From Verrucomicrobiales bacterium (lineage in GTDB: Bacteria > Verrucomicrobiota > Verrucomicrobiia > Verrucomicrobiales > DEV007), in contig JARGOP010000005.1 in the NCBI GenBank assembly GCA_029233965.1, positions 1 through 64,000 of the forward strand: DNA of 64,000 bases, in the 5' to 3' direction. Numbering within the stretch: the stretch's first letter is position 1; the number at the start of each line of letters is the position of its first letter. Positions 7,242 through 27,708 of the stretch are shown one piece after another. Below the pieces are notes generated by a model that searched no databases, was not told where the DNA came from, and worked only from the letters and a program-made list of their open reading frames with translations. The position numbers and the translations under genes are program-made.

Positions 7242-7591
7242 CGATTGATAAAGGCGCGGATGGAGCGGTTAAATTCGCGAAACGACATGCGGCGGTTCAC
7301 CATCCCCCCTGCCACCTGCGGATCCTGAGGGTTTGAATTCTGGTCGAAACAAAATCCCACGGTTTCCCCTTTTTCATAAAGCGTCGCGGAAGAAACCGCG
7401 TGCATTCCGAGCTGCTCCCCGAGAAGGATCGCGCACTCCTGCAGCGTCATCAGGTTTTCGGCGAAGAGTGCCGTATCCTCCCGACCGCTCTTTCCGCTGG
7501 CCGATCCGCGCCCGGCGGTAAAAAACCGGATCTTCCCCTGGGCGAGCGCTTCTTTCAGCACTTCATTCTCTGACTCTTCACCTTCGGACAT
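7238..7591 (-). CDS. hypothetical protein
   Basis: 117 aa ORF translationally coupled to the next ORF. Confidence 0.6.
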   Translation of the reverse strand: MSEGEESENEVLKEALAQGKIRFFTAGRGSASGKSGREDTALFAENLMTLQECAILLGEQLGMHAVSSATLYEKGETVGFCFDQNSNPQDPQVAGGMVNRRMSFREFNRSIRAFINR

Positions 7592-7691
7592 GGGCGTTAG
7601 ACTACCGTTTTTCGACAGGGGGATCTTACCCGAATTCGCCCGAATGTCGAATCCTTAAGCTTTCTTCACTATACTCGCAGTTTGAGCGGTG

Positions 7692-7806
7692 CTCAACTGT
7701 GGCGGAATGATGACTCGGCGAAGCCCCGGATTCATTGACAACGCCACCGGCACAGGGGTGGTAGAGCCCCGGTTCCGCATAAAATCCACCCCTCTCGACA
7801 GTTGAG
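7692..7806. other. possible structured RNA leader upstream of der
   Basis: Perfect inverted repeats CTCAACTGT(7692)/ACAGTTGAG(7798), GCGGAA(7702)/TTCCGC(7773), AGGGGTGG(7754)/CCACCCCT(7786); the last two cross. Confidence 0.3.
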
Positions 7807-9380: not shown

Positions 9381-10133
9381 TTATCGGGAGCGAATGTCGT
9401 TGATCTCATCCTCCGTCGCGGGGAGAACGTTCATCTTCACTTCGTTCGGAATTTCCACTTCCGGGTTCTCCTCGTAGAGATACGATTCCATGATCATGTA
9501 GACCTTCCCGCGACTGTTCGGGCGGAAGGTTCTCGATCCGAGGGCACGGGTGATTTTGATCGGCTCTTCCCCCGTCTCGATCTCAAGCACGAACTGCTGG
9601 CCGGATAACCCGAAGGTCGGGTCCACCTTGCGCATTTCGTTCTGAATTTCGACGAGCGGGCGGAAGAGTTCCTGATACGTGACCTTGCCGTCTTTGATCT
9701 CGGGCGGCGTGACTTTGGGAACTTCGAGTTCAACGTAGATATTCAGCGAACCACGGGGTTGATTGGCAACCAGGTCCGGGTTGGATTCGATGAGATCCTC
9801 ACGAAACGGCACCGTGACGAAACCATCGTTGTCGACAACGAGAACAAGAGGTCCTTCTTCGAGGTCCAGAAAAAGCTCGATGTCCTTTGACTTGACGCTT
9901 GAATTGCGACTCTGAATTCGAAGACGGTATTCCTCGGCATCCTTGTCCGAGCGGGCGTCGCTTTGGGCGATCTTGATGAGATGCTGATACGGAAGGCGGG
10001 CCAGATTGTTGAAATCGAGCGGACGCCCCGAAAGCGTTTCCGGTGTCGCAGTAGTCTCTTCGTCCTGCGCGGTGGCAGAAATTAACAAGGCACCGAGAGC
10101 GAGGCAGAGAACGACGGTGGCTTTTTTCATCAT
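9381..10133 (-). CDS. hypothetical secreted protein
   Basis: Signal peptide MMKKATVVLCLALGALLISATAQ; start inside the 266-aa ORF. Confidence 0.65.
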   Translation of the reverse strand: MMKKATVVLCLALGALLISATAQDEETTATPETLSGRPLDFNNLARLPYQHLIKIAQSDARSDKDAEEYRLRIQSRNSSVKSKDIELFLDLEEGPLVLVVDNDGFVTVPFREDLIESNPDLVANQPRGSLNIYVELEVPKVTPPEIKDGKVTYQELFRPLVEIQNEMRKVDPTFGLSGQQFVLEIETGEEPIKITRALGSRTFRPNSRGKVYMIMESYLYEENPEVEIPNEVKMNVLPATEDEINDIRSR

Positions 10134-20241: not shown

Positions 20242-21780
20242 TCATTCAAGCGGCGCATCCGGTTCGCGATAGAACCATTCCGGAAAGCGGGCCGCTTCAC
20301 TTCCTCCTTTTTTCCGGTGGAGAAATTTCGTTCCCCGATCCGGAAGCAATGGCATTTCGCTGCCGCCGGTTTCCTCGATGAGTTGAAAAAGGCGCTCGTT
20401 CAGCTCGGCGACTTTATCGGCATAAGCAGGATCATTGATGAGATTGATCCGCTCTTCCGGATCCTTCTCAAGATCAAAGAGTTCGTCGACATCCCAGATT
20501 CCGTGATAGCGGATGTATTTGTAACGCTCCCCCAGCACTGCATGGGTCGTCGGGGTGTGCGGATAATTCCTCTCCCAGTAATACTCGTAGAGAAGGTAGT
20601 CCCGCCACTCGTCCGACGCTCCGGTGACGAGCGGCTTCATGCTGCGTCCATCCATGTGTTCCGGGATCTCCACTCCGGCGAAATCCAGCATCGTCGGGGC
20701 AACGTCAATATTCGCGACGACTTCAGTGAGCGTTTGCCCCCCTTTCACTTCCCTCGGATATCGCATCAACATGGGGATCCTGACCGAAGCATCGTAGGCG
20801 TTGCGCTTGTCGATGAGCCCCTTCTCCCCGAAGAGAAATCCATTGTCGCCCAGGTAAAGAATTACGGTGTTGTCCAACTCACCCCGCTCTTCGAGAAGCT
20901 TCAGGATCCGGTCCGTACTTTCATCGACCGCTTTGATCGTTTCGCAATAGCGTTTGTAGTAGGTGCTCAGATCCAGATTCGTGTAGTAGGCGAACACGGA
21001 ACCATGCCGACTGTTGTGTTGATTCTGAACCCACATCGGGACATCGCGGAACGCTTCCGGCATCTCTTTCCAGGTTTTCGGGGGATCAAAGCTTTCGTCT
21101 TCATAAACGTAGGCATGCCGGTTCGATGGCAGGAAGTCGGCATGAACCGCCTTGTGGGAAAGGTAGAGCATCCAGGGTTTGACCCCTGTCCTTTCGTTGA
21201 GCCACTCCCCGGCAAAGTCGCTGAGAACATCGGTGATGTAACCTTCCTGGGGAACTCTCGTTCCGTTGACGTTGAATCCATCACTATTCACCTGCGGGAC
21301 ATAGCGCCCTTTCACTTTCGCCTGCGAGGGATCGGCAAAATAAACGCCCTGCCCTTTGAAGGCGACCCAGTGATCGAACCCGGGCTGAGGATAATCAATT
21401 TCCCCTCCCATATGCCATTTTCCGATGAAGGCGGTTTCATAGCCGGCCTCCTGCAGAGAGGACGGGAAATACGCGAGCCCCTCTGGGATCGGGTTGTAAT
21501 TGTCGACGACACGATGGTTGTGCGCGTAGAGCCCGGTCAGGATCGAAGCCCGGCTCGGCGAGCAAAGGGACGTCGTCACGACTGCATTTTTGAAATAGAC
21601 GCCCTCTTCTGCGAGGCGGTCCAGAGCCGGGGTCTCAAGAAAGGGATGGCCGAGAAATCCCATCGCGTCATAACGATGGTCGTCTGTCAGGATGACGAGG
21701 ATGTTCGGCTTCTCCGCAGCGGTGGAGAGGGCGGGCAAAGAGATCAAGAAGAAGGCAAACAGGACTTTTATCGGCGGCAT
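20242..21780 (-). CDS. sulfatase (S1 family)
   Basis: NILVILTDDHRYDAMG and CSPSRASILTG. Confidence 0.92.
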   Translation of the reverse strand: MPPIKVLFAFFLISLPALSTAAEKPNILVILTDDHRYDAMGFLGHPFLETPALDRLAEEGVYFKNAVVTTSLCSPSRASILTGLYAHNHRVVDNYNPIPEGLAYFPSSLQEAGYETAFIGKWHMGGEIDYPQPGFDHWVAFKGQGVYFADPSQAKVKGRYVPQVNSDGFNVNGTRVPQEGYITDVLSDFAGEWLNERTGVKPWMLYLSHKAVHADFLPSNRHAYVYEDESFDPPKTWKEMPEAFRDVPMWVQNQHNSRHGSVFAYYTNLDLSTYYKRYCETIKAVDESTDRILKLLEERGELDNTVILYLGDNGFLFGEKGLIDKRNAYDASVRIPMLMRYPREVKGGQTLTEVVANIDVAPTMLDFAGVEIPEHMDGRSMKPLVTGASDEWRDYLLYEYYWERNYPHTPTTHAVLGERYKYIRYHGIWDVDELFDLEKDPEERINLINDPAYADKVAELNERLFQLIEETGGSEMPLLPDRGTKFLHRKKGGSEAARFPEWFYREPDAPLE

Positions 21781-21979
21781 GACGCGAAACTACGAAAGCG
21801 GACCGGCATGGTCAACGGAAAGGATATCCCCGGGTCCAGAGGTGGCGGGATGACCGGTAAGTCAGTTATCACCCCCTGGTTGTCGATTGCTCAACAGCGG
21901 GCCGGGAATCACGACCGGGAAAAAACTCGAAATTTTTATCGTGCTGATTGTCAATCAGTTAGAGCCATCTCGAAAAAAG

Positions 21980-21996
21980 TTGGCACAGCGAATGCA
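21980..21996 (+). promoter_or_regulatory. sigma-54 (-24/-12) promoter candidate
   Basis: TTGGCACAGCGAATGCA: -24 GG and -12 GC with exact 12-bp register of YTGGCACGRNNNTTGCW. Confidence 0.6.
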
Positions 21997-22058
21997 ATAG
22001 CATCGGTCAAGAGTGATAACCGCACTCAACAATTCACCAACCACAGAAAATAACGATC

Positions 22059-22247
22059 ATGAAAAACGAAAAAATCACTTATCGCGGCGCTTCCATTGAA
22101 CAGTCCGAGCGCACTCAGCAGCTCCAGCAGAAACAGCACACCCAACTTGTGAGCTACCGCGGAGCCAAGGGCAACGTTCAGGTCGGCCACAAGGCTCACA
22201 GGGAGAATGTCCAGTATCGCGGCGCCAAAGGCGAAGTTCAGCTGTAA
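22059..22247 (+). CDS. DUF4278-like YRG-repeat small protein (paralogue 1, basic)
   Basis: 62 aa: MKNEKITYRGAS...VSYRGAKGNVQV...VQYRGAKGEVQL. Confidence 0.75.
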   Translation: MKNEKITYRGASIEQSERTQQLQQKQHTQLVSYRGAKGNVQVGHKAHRENVQYRGAKGEVQL

Positions 22248-22294
22248 TCCGCCGATCCACCAATCTCCCCCTAACATTCAACCACATCAATAGT

Positions 22295-22483
22295 ATGAGC
22301 GAAGAAAAAATTACTTACCGCGGTGCTTCCAAAGAGCAGTCTGAGGACACCAGGCAAATGCATGAAGGCAAGCACACTGAGCATGTCAGCTATCGCGGCA
22401 TCGAAGGCGACGTCGAAGTCGGCCACGAAAAGCACACGCAGGAAGTTCAGTATCGCGGCGCCAAAGGCGAAGTCGAGCTTTAG
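22295..22483 (+). CDS. DUF4278-like YRG-repeat small protein (paralogue 2, acidic)
   Basis: 62 aa, 40/62 identical to paralogue 1 by hand alignment. Confidence 0.75.
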   Translation: MSEEKITYRGASKEQSEDTRQMHEGKHTEHVSYRGIEGDVEVGHEKHTQEVQYRGAKGEVEL

Positions 22484-22514
22484 GCCGATCGGAGAATTTC
22501 CCTCCCCCTACGAG

Positions 22515-22546
22515 AGAGGCAGCTGGAAACGGCTGCCTCTTTTTTC
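22515..22546 (+). terminator. rho-independent terminator
   Basis: AGAGGCAGC-loop-GCTGCCTCT followed by a T run. Confidence 0.85.
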
Positions 22547-22587
22547 GTCTTGATTGCATTCCCCCGGCGAATTTGCTACATCGAAGC

Positions 22588-23403
22588 ATGCTCCGTCCCC
22601 GCAAAAAATACACCGTCTACGATCTCCAGCAGCTCAAAGGAAAACGGGTTCTCAGTCACATTCACGTAAAGTCCCCCGAAGAGGCCGCAGCAGCGGAGGC
22701 GGCAGGGCTGGATCTTCTCAGTTGCAGCTATGATTCCCCCGGGGCGCAGGCCCGCCTTCCGCTTCTCGTGGAAGCGGCGCCGAACAGTTTTCTCTCGGGT
22801 GCGACACCGCACGGTCTCGCCAGTCGCGAGGAAGCGATTCGCATTGCCTTTCAGGCACTCGAAGCGGGTGCCAGCTCGGTCTATTGCTCCGCGAGTCCCT
22901 TTATCATCGAAGGAATGGCCCGCGAGGGTATCCCCGTCGTCGGCCACCTGGGACTGGTTCCCCGGCATGTCACCTGGACAGGATATCGTGCGATCGGGAA
23001 AACGGCAGACGAGGCCGCAAAGCTCTATGCGAGGATGAAGGAACTGGAGAGCGCCGGGGCGTATGCCGCTGAGTTGGAAGTTGTTCCTCATCAACTCGCC
23101 CGCTACCTGGCGTCGAAGACTTCGATGCTGCTCATGTCCCTGGGGAGCGGCACCGGATGCGACACCCAGTTTCTCTTTTCCGACGACATTCTGGGAGACT
23201 ACGACGAACGACTCCCCCGTCATGCCAAAGCCTACCGCAATTTCCGGGCGGAATATGAAAGGCTTCAAGAGGAACGTATCGCCGCTTTCAAAGAGTATGT
23301 CGCCGATGTCTCCGGCGGGCAGTTTCCCGGTGAGGAGCATCTTGTGACAATGAAATCCGCAGAGTGGGAAGCCTTTCTTGCGGGGGTGAGTGAACTGGAA
23401 TAA
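22588..23403 (+). CDS. 3-methyl-2-oxobutanoate hydroxymethyltransferase (PanB)-like, divergent
   Basis: GIPVVGHLGLVPRHVTWTGYRAIGKTADEAAKL and ELEVVPHQLA; start MLRPRKKYTVYDL. Confidence 0.7.
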   Translation: MLRPRKKYTVYDLQQLKGKRVLSHIHVKSPEEAAAAEAAGLDLLSCSYDSPGAQARLPLLVEAAPNSFLSGATPHGLASREEAIRIAFQALEAGASSVYCSASPFIIEGMAREGIPVVGHLGLVPRHVTWTGYRAIGKTADEAAKLYARMKELESAGAYAAELEVVPHQLARYLASKTSMLLMSLGSGTGCDTQFLFSDDILGDYDERLPRHAKAYRNFRAEYERLQEERIAAFKEYVADVSGGQFPGEEHLVTMKSAEWEAFLAGVSELE

Positions 23404-25731: not shown

Positions 25732-25748
25732 TTGGCACGCAACGTGCT
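25732..25748 (+). promoter_or_regulatory. sigma-54 (-24/-12) promoter candidate
   Basis: TTGGCACGCAACGTGCT, same GG/GC register; 42 bp upstream of the ATG at 25790. Confidence 0.65.
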
Positions 25749-25789: not shown

Positions 25790-27115
25790 ATGCTCAACAC
25801 GACTGATTCTACTATCGACACGTATCCCGGCCGGATTTCATCCGATCAGGAAGTCAATAATCTCATCCTTGTGGTGAGGGCCGACCCCATCATTTGCGGA
25901 CACTCGACTGAGGCCCGCAACCTCGCTGAGGCAGCGATCGCACGCGGATTTAAATCCGTTCACATCGTCACGTATCCCATCGAGACTCTGCAGAACAGCG
26001 GTCTTCCGCTCAAACCGCTCGATACGATCTCCGTCTACTCAGAGGGGATCGAAGTGGACCGTCCTGAGCCGATCGGCGACTACAAGGTTCTCGATGGCCG
26101 CCTCGGCTACGCGATCAGCGGACAACTGGTCGATCTTCTTCACAAGTTGCCCGGAAAAACGATGATCATGGATCTCTACCTCGTTCCGCACGGCCAGATG
26201 GTGCTCAACGCGATCGACAGCTTCCGGGGCCTCAAGAAGCAGCCTAACGTCGTCACCGTCGGCGAAGCGGTCGGATCGGACATCACGAATGTCGTCACGA
26301 ATGCTCTCGCCGCCGGCCGGACCGGGGCCGCTCAGGTCGTTCTTTCCAACTACCTCCAGCATGATCTCCCTGTCGCCGTGAGCCAATTCACCAAGGACAT
26401 GATCATTGACGCCGGTCACAAAGTGGACGCCGAAATGGGAACCGATTTTGCAACGCAACTGCGGGAGCGGGTCGAGATCAGCTTCCCCGCGATCGACACG
26501 AGCGCTTACACTTCGATCGAGAATGACCGGGAGAGGATTGCTGAAATCATGGAAGCCCGCCAGCTCGAAGAGGACGGCTACGTCATGTTCCTCTCCCGCA
26601 TTGCTCCCGCGAAAGGAGTCGATGATCTCATCGAAGCCTACAAGAGCAGCGAGCTTTATGGACAGAAGAAGCTCATCATTTGCGGCAACGGTCCGATGAA
26701 AGAAGAGATCCAGGCGATGGCCGACACGGACACCAACATCCGCGTCCTCGACGACATCAGCGACGAGGAAAAAGGCGTCCTCATGCATGCTGCCTTTGCC
26801 TACTGCCTTCCCAGCAAACCCAAGCCCGAGTTCATCGAGACCTTCGGCATCGCGGTGGCGGAGAAAATGCTCGCCGGGGGTCCCGGCCCCGTCATCACGA
26901 CCCGGACCGGCGGCATTCCGGAAGCCACGGGAGGACATTGCCTTGAACATGGCGCCGGCAATGTGCATGAGCTGCGGGAGTGCCTCAACAAAGCCTACTT
27001 CATGACCGAGGAGGAGCGCCTCGACCTTTCACAGCGCGCCCGTGAGTTTGCGATGAACTTTGATCGGGGCGCGATTCTCGATAACCTGATTCATCGCTCC
27101 CTCGCAGTGTCCTGA
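25790..27115 (+). CDS. glycosyltransferase (GT4-like)
   Basis: VMFLSRIAPAKGVDDLIEAY, IICGNGPMKEEI, EFIETFGIAVAEKMLAGGPGPVITTRTGGIPE. Confidence 0.8.
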   Translation: MLNTTDSTIDTYPGRISSDQEVNNLILVVRADPIICGHSTEARNLAEAAIARGFKSVHIVTYPIETLQNSGLPLKPLDTISVYSEGIEVDRPEPIGDYKVLDGRLGYAISGQLVDLLHKLPGKTMIMDLYLVPHGQMVLNAIDSFRGLKKQPNVVTVGEAVGSDITNVVTNALAAGRTGAAQVVLSNYLQHDLPVAVSQFTKDMIIDAGHKVDAEMGTDFATQLRERVEISFPAIDTSAYTSIENDRERIAEIMEARQLEEDGYVMFLSRIAPAKGVDDLIEAYKSSELYGQKKLIICGNGPMKEEIQAMADTDTNIRVLDDISDEEKGVLMHAAFAYCLPSKPKPEFIETFGIAVAEKMLAGGPGPVITTRTGGIPEATGGHCLEHGAGNVHELRECLNKAYFMTEEERLDLSQRAREFAMNFDRGAILDNLIHRSLAVS

Positions 27116-27247: not shown

Positions 27248-27502
27248 TCACGAAAGCAGGTGCTCGTATTCAGCGTGAGTTCCGATAAAGAACCAGATGA
27301 TCGTATCTCCGTCCATCACTCCAAGAGCTCGATAGCTGCCGGTCACACGGGCGGACCAGAAATCTCCCACCTTCTTGAATCGAAGGGAAGGATGATGTGG
27401 ATCCTGAATCCAAAGATCATACTGCTTCTGCGCCGCTATCTGAACCTTTTCGGGTAGGCGATTAAATCCCTCCCAGAAACCGGGAACTGCCTTGCTGTTC
27501 AT
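27248..27502 (-). CDS. RelE/ParE-type toxin
   Basis: 84 aa: LRFKKVGDFWSARVTGSYRALGVMDGDTIIWFFIGTHAEYEHLL; overlaps the partner ORF by 4 bp. Confidence 0.75.
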   Translation of the reverse strand: MNSKAVPGFWEGFNRLPEKVQIAAQKQYDLWIQDPHHPSLRFKKVGDFWSARVTGSYRALGVMDGDTIIWFFIGTHAEYEHLLS

Positions 27503-27708
27503 TTGGCGGGGAAATCCCTGGAATCTCCTGCACGGTACGCTGCAATTGCCTGAGCAGCGATATCAGTGAGGCGACCGGAACGAACGTCGGACTCAATCTG
27601 CTGATCCCACTGATCATCAAGACGTTGTCGAAGCCAGTCTCCGAGTTCAAAGATTTTTTCCGGAGGCAGCTTTTCAATTGCCTTTTCAATTTCCTCCAAG
27701 GTGGACAT
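27499..27708 (-). CDS. antitoxin component of a type II TA module
   Basis: 69 aa small ORF immediately upstream of the toxin. Confidence 0.65.
   Translation of the reverse strand: MSTLEEIEKAIEKLPPEKIFELGDWLRQRLDDQWDQQIESDVRSGRLTDIAAQAIAAYRAGDSRDFPAK

Follow-up and report, generated by a model that had tools for sequence, protein, structure and literature searches.

The tandem genes p1 and p2 of a marine Verrucomicrobiales genome probably form a short unit of an NtrC/RpoN nitrogen regulon whose products are DUF4278-like effectors, a reading to which we give a probability of about 0.6. Its firmest part is the regulon membership itself, which the upstream sequence makes highly probable. The proposal that both proteins act as effectors on glutamine synthetase, PII or another nitrogen enzyme or sensor is drawn by analogy and stays tentative, and a contact between p1 and p2 is somewhat more doubtful still. 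The DUF4278 theme is known; the phylum and the regulatory tie to the PII/NtrC switch are new. Coordinates without a contig name refer to the window, that is, the whole 64,000-nucleotide stretch of DNA that was analysed.

Tandem genes for YRG-repeat miniproteins

The p1 gene (22059–22247, + strand) encodes a basic, DUF4278-like YRG-repeat miniprotein of 62 residues, and its tandem paralogue p2 (22295–22483, + strand) encodes an acidic one of the same length; both begin with ATG and follow each other head to tail across a gap of 47 nt. Sequence comparison gives 40 identities in 62 positions (65%), and the YRG motif falls at the same places in both proteins (Y8-R9-G10, Y33-R34-G35 and Y53-R54-G55). 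With 11 K/R and 5 D/E, p1 has a net charge of +6, and p2, with 9 K/R and 14 D/E, one of −5, while a 26-nt stretch (cagtatcgcggcgccaaaggcgaagt) is identical near the 3′ ends of the two genes. An earlier note on this DNA had reported the lengths, the 40/62 identity, the motif positions, the charges and the 26-nt identity, and every one of these figures was correct on recount. Reading the alignment directly, we found six columns (residues 3, 24, 29, 37, 45 and 61) that are acidic in all p2 proteins and non-acidic in all p1 proteins. The alignment also displays QLQQQQ tracts in many members of the family; p2 has lost most of its Gln residues, and no signal peptide is present in the miniproteins by inspection. 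AlphaFold2 single-chain models of p1 and p2 were poor (pLDDT 48.5 and 51); the three hairpins that these low-confidence models suggest, with YRG at the turns, should be taken as a hint and no more.

The only Pfam match of either protein was DUF4278 (PF14105), with 21.8 bits for p1 and 19.7 bits for p2 against a gathering cut-off of 25.3 bits, so that both fall short of it. The match nevertheless spans profile positions 2–55 of 57 in both proteins, the pair of YRG motifs that spans the domain is present in each, and YRG is invariant or nearly so throughout the alignment. All 24 collected family members matched DUF4278 at E < 1 (best 2.3e-5), mostly just under the cut-off, and a homologue from another genus (G083) rose above it with 26.8 bits. 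The resemblance to DUF4278 suspected in the earlier note is borne out by this profile search, and on these matches the YRG miniproteins are a divergent sister branch of DUF4278 that stands formally outside the family. An NCBIfam match to MARTX (E 0.0094), with 13 bits where the cut-off is 700, was set aside as chance, and a PDB profile search returned no solved relative (best E 0.68, ribosomal protein S15).

Our search, which uses a loose first look and may miss distant members, located the YRG family in 11 of the 76 genomes that share the taxonomic family of the present one, and nowhere in a sample of 389 other genomes from the phylum. A single-protein scan of the genome collection gave four Verrucomicrobiales loci, and the named records with family members are Verrucomicrobiales metagenome-assembled genomes. 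Members occur as single genes (one copy each in G030, G032, G014, G009 and G083), as tandem pairs of the same sign (+3/+3, +2/+5, +5/+4, +6/+1 and +8/+1) and, at the p1-p2 locus, as pairs of opposite sign. Given how common lone copies and same-sign pairs are, a complex that requires opposite charges does not hold for the family at large, and charge complementarity as a family rule is rejected. The earlier note had made its idea of a complementary assembly depend on whether basic/acidic pairs are kept among relatives or give way to single or same-charge copies; the opposite charges are kept at this locus in three species, while across the family the single and same-charge copies count against it. 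A different arrangement was seen in a distant genus (G091:C37, locus L198), where two tandem YRG pairs at 7301–7737 and 9405–9830 each consist of a basic protein of 48–49 aa followed by a near-neutral one of 70–71 aa with a terminal WRG repeat, each pair having its own dyad and sigma-54 promoter.

Selection and duplication history

Two congeneric species (G012 and G006) carry a syntenic pair, flanked by an opposite-strand sulfatase gene and a PanB-like gene, with net charges of +3/−6 and +4/−5, respectively, in the same basic-then-acidic order as here. This synteny of both genes argues that p1 and p2 are not chance. Differences between orthologues fall mostly at third codon positions (for example, 5/4/21 and 3/3/25 at positions 1/2/3), and NG86 dN/dS is about 0.06–0.3 across the two genes where it is computable (0.08–0.12 for the computable pairs of p1 and 0.06–0.29 for p2). 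On this codon-level evidence, purifying selection acts on both p1 and p2, and their similarity and conservation exceed chance.

In the tree, the p2 proteins form a group apart from the p1 proteins (support 100/99); some long acidic rows join this group, and their joining may be a long-branch effect. Because p1 and p2 separate in this way, the duplication predates the split of the three species, and the within-genome dS between the copies is 1.1–1.7. These two results rule out a recent duplication. The 3′ ends of the copies differ in G006 and G012, and the 26-nt identity is special to the present genome, which points to a recent and local homogenisation of the 3′ end on an old duplication. Of the two explanations that the earlier note had offered for the identical stretch, recency falls and homogenisation holds, for this genome. 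A more distant species (G027) carries one basic copy (net +4, L190:6862–7050) at the same syntenic place, which makes it probable that the acidic copy is the derived one, and the simplest history would be a single basic gene, a tandem duplication and then the acidification of p2.

Promoter, enhancer and terminator of the p1-p2 unit

A sigma-54 (−24/−12) promoter (TTGGCACAGCGAATGCA, 21980–21996, + strand) that matches the consensus at 13/13 positions lies 79 nt above the p1 ATG. About 124 bp further upstream is an enhancer dyad (GGTAAGTCAGTTATC, 21856–21870, + strand; GGTAA-N5-TTATC, consensus GGTAA-N5-TTACC), a putative site of an NtrC-like enhancer-binding protein, which together with the next half-site is also readable as a 17-bp dyad TTATCA-N5-TGGTTG (21866–21882). 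A second, weaker dyad (GGTTGTCGATTGCTC, 21878–21892, + strand) follows 22 bp, or two helical turns, after the first; most family promoters have such a copy in matching register, and in the present genome it is weak. A terminator scan placed a Rho-independent terminator with a 14-bp stem and a T tail at 22512–22543 (+ strand), no sigma-70-like promoter was found in 21700–22700, and no promoter of any kind belonging to p2 itself was found. From the sigma-54 promoter, the lack of a sigma-70-like site and the terminator after p2, we infer one transcription unit that runs from the promoter through p1 and p2 to the terminator. The Rfam scan of 21700–22700 gave no match of any kind at E ≤ 1, and so no glutamine riboswitch, and control of p1-p2 by such an aptamer was rejected.

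Across the family, the same arrangement of enhancer and sigma-54 promoter stands in front of 19 of 21 units, spread over 11 genomes and three genera; the two units without it are outlying acidic or neutral copies (G025 C281 and G027 C8). The spacing from the enhancer to the −24 element of the promoter is 122–125 bp in 15 units and 113–114 bp in four, so that the two classes differ by roughly one turn of the helix. When dyad and promoter were sought together under strict settings, the 64-kb window returned one match, namely p1-p2, compared with a mean of 0.0 over 40 simulations of equal length.

Elsewhere in the window, a second sigma-54-like promoter (TTGGCACGCAACGTGCT, 25732–25748, + strand) precedes a group 1 glycosyltransferase gene (25790–27115) by about 40 nt, and a site of the sigma-54 type also precedes its orthologue in G012, G006 and G027. 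No GGTAA dyad is present at 25732–25748, so this promoter probably answers to another activator. A ParE-like toxin (27248–27502, within 27248–27708 on the − strand) scored 27.9 bits, above the Pfam cut-off, and the 69-aa ORF upstream that overlaps it, which has no Pfam match, is probably its antitoxin.

A regulatory architecture shared with PII

Throughout the whole genome, dyad and sigma-54 patterns coincide within 140 bp at exactly three places, which are p1-p2, a second YRG gene (C98) and the PII/NtrC-like locus (C8), with a chance expectation of about 0.005 by hand estimate. Since YRG promoters had supplied the dyad motif in the first place, the PII coincidence alone of the three is independent. 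At this locus, the dyad (C8 60117–60131) is accompanied by a sigma-54 promoter (60207) that points at the PII gene (C8:60265–60582; P-II family, 119 bits), and on the opposite side of the intergenic region starts the divergent gene of an NtrC-like enhancer-binding protein (L040:5163–6590, also on C8). GGTAA-N5-TTAYC is thus common to the p1-p2 upstream region and the PII/NtrC-like locus. Among the 13 genomes examined, 11, including all nine YRG-bearing genomes of the set, have the dyad at the PII promoter, adjoining a sigma-54 site oriented towards PII; the same 11 have the divergent NtrC-like gene beside PII, and the remaining two have neither dyad nor gene. The spacings of the PII dyads are 68, 77, 90 and 101 bp, and their helical phasing is suggestive, dependent on the helical repeat that is assumed. 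Taken together, the PII set provides strong independent evidence, at the level of sequence, for a shared switch.

The PII-adjacent activator comprises a receiver, a Sigma54_activat domain containing GAFTGA, and an HTH_8 domain. Among the NCBIfam models it matches NtrC (TIGR01818) best, at 455 bits, short of the equivalog cut-off of 558.6, and it is therefore termed NtrC-like. At the phospho-acceptor position of the receiver, Asn takes the place of Asp in the present genome (G000) and G006, as do Ser in G012 and Glu in G009, G025 and G030; Asp is kept in G001, G004, G014 and G032. With Asn in place of Asp, the signal may not be classical phosphorylation; as a separate observation, the receiver appears to be losing phosphorylation within one genus. 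The genome also encodes RpoN and three further enhancer-binding proteins. The features of a sigma-54 regulon are accordingly present, from the −24/−12 promoter and the enhancer shared with PII/NtrC to RpoN and an enhancer-binding protein with GAFTGA, and the earlier suggestion of a possible link to stress can be narrowed down, since the promoter is organised like that of a PII/NtrC nitrogen switch.

Conserved sigma-54-like promoters were also found at the amt genes and at a short GSII-like glutamine synthetase gene, with no clear dyad at either. The latter gene (338 aa, C56:85672) has orthologues in G012, G027, G030, G032 and G083, and its conserved sigma-54-like site lies about 120 nt above the ATG; the long glutamine synthetase genes of the same genomes are mostly without one. 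The neighbourhoods of the YRG genes revealed no link to nitrogen enzymes.

Proposed mechanism and alternative explanations

We propose that the PII-adjacent activator would bind the GGTAA-N5-TTACC array and loop to the RpoN-RNA polymerase, so that p1-p2 would be switched on with PII upon a change of nitrogen status, most likely nitrogen limitation. The products would be miniproteins built of DUF4278-like beta-hairpin repeats in which YRG occupies the turn, and most likely they would bind glutamine synthetase or PII as effectors or adaptors, a guess that derives from the DUF4278 half of cyanobacterial IF17, which accompanies glutamine synthetase inactivation. As p2 would be a tandem duplicate of a basic ancestor that turned acidic, it may partner or counteract p1. 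The evidence as a whole suggests that the YRG miniproteins are nitrogen-control proteins distantly related to DUF4278.

The most serious competitor, though an unlikely one, is that p1 and p2 complement each other electrostatically as the two halves of a hetero-assembly, and that this pairing is their function. The shared operon with one promoter and one terminator, the basic-then-acidic order in three species (+6/−5, +3/−6 and +4/−5), the six consistently acidic p2 columns and the purifying selection on both genes all fit such an assembly; against it stand the same-sign tandem pairs elsewhere, the single-copy genomes, the lone basic copy at the syntenic G027 locus and the folding, which gave low-confidence monomers only. 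Moreover, a charge order conserved among three closely related species is little independent evidence. A different objection accepts RpoN control and assigns the activator to another response, such as exopolysaccharide/PEP-CTERM of the PrsR type or envelope stress, with PII a mere neighbour. The PEP-CTERM response regulator model indeed gives the activator 386 bits (neither this model nor that of NtrC reaches its cut-off), the usual Asp is missing from its receiver and three further enhancer-binding proteins are available; yet the NtrC model is better by 69 bits, no PrsK-like kinase at cut-off adjoins the activator gene, and the dyad with its PII-directed sigma-54 site recurs in the PII/activator intergenic region of 11 genomes, which leaves this objection improbable.

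The miniproteins could also be structural or cross-linking substrates, rich in Gln and Lys (for transglutaminase, for example), that are made when nitrogen status changes. The QLQQQQ tracts of many members suit this role, as do transglutaminase-like genes divergent from a YRG gene in two genomes, but no such gene lies beside p1-p2 or at most other loci, the proteins lack a signal peptide by inspection and p2 has given up most of its Gln, so we consider it very unlikely. In these two genomes, a bacterial transglutaminase-like gene (L191:814–1692 in G030 and L192:6163–7035 in G025) was observed divergent from a Gln/Lys-rich YRG gene. Least credible is that p1 and p2 are chance ORFs or decaying, functionless duplicates; they are very short and their family match is below threshold, but selection on both copies, the conserved promoter, the three-species synteny and the 11-genome family contradict this so thoroughly that it hardly needs to be entertained.

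Within the preferred reading of a nitrogen-regulon unit, a bolder extension can be formulated, which we regard as a long shot: NtrC/RpoN-induced DUF4278-like effectors outside cyanobacteria would bind glutamine synthetase or PII, and in one clade the charge-inverted duplicate would serve as an antagonist or sequestering partner, yielding a two-protein electrostatic switch.

Comparison with known systems

To our knowledge, the only biochemical role established for DUF4278 is that of a dispensable, stabilising half of IF17. If our reading is true, an unrelated phylum has wired a DUF4278-like family to PII/NtrC, which would be independent evidence that the fold belongs to nitrogen control, and the question of what DUF4278 binds would become testable with a handful of proteins of 62–67 aa. 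The p1-p2 locus also offers an orderly case of a tandem duplication with subsequent charge inversion, both copies being served by a single promoter.

In cyanobacteria, the glutamine synthetase inactivating factor IF17 (gifB) has DUF4278 as its N-terminal half, and DUF4278 genes, including those of picocyanobacterial small proteins, carry glutamine riboswitches (PMC6316151, PMC7760959). The YRG family resembles DUF4278 in its YRG motifs, its length of about 57–67 residues, its match to profile positions 2–55 and its small, charged proteins, and it resembles the cyanobacterial members in a control by nitrogen status that is here deduced from the promoter. It differs in having three YRG motifs, in falling mostly under the Pfam cut-off and in belonging to Verrucomicrobiales, DUF4278 being mainly cyanobacterial. 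Control also differs, with an NtrC-like activator and sigma-54 in the YRG family as opposed to NtcA and a riboswitch in cyanobacterial DUF4278. Unlike IF17, p1 and p2 end after the third YRG repeat, with no IF7-like inhibitory region following the DUF4278-like part. The cyanobacterial inactivating factors are made at nitrogen excess and are NtcA-repressed under limitation (PMC7760959), so that an NtrC-activated gene would have the opposite sign; this probable reversal argues against p1-p2 being a simple inhibitor made at nitrogen excess.

With the known NtrC/RpoN regulon that includes PII (glnB/glnK), the present system shares enhancer pairs above −24/−12 promoters, an activator of the NtrC family and the placement of PII and amt under sigma-54. 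It departs from that regulon in its GGTAA-N5-TTACC enhancer, in an activator gene divergent from PII and in a receiver whose Asp is missing in several species. It also includes YRG miniproteins, with which we found no NtrC regulon described in the literature searched. In their proposed role, the YRG proteins would join IF7, IF17 and archaeal sP26, which are likewise very small effectors of glutamine synthetase made according to nitrogen status.
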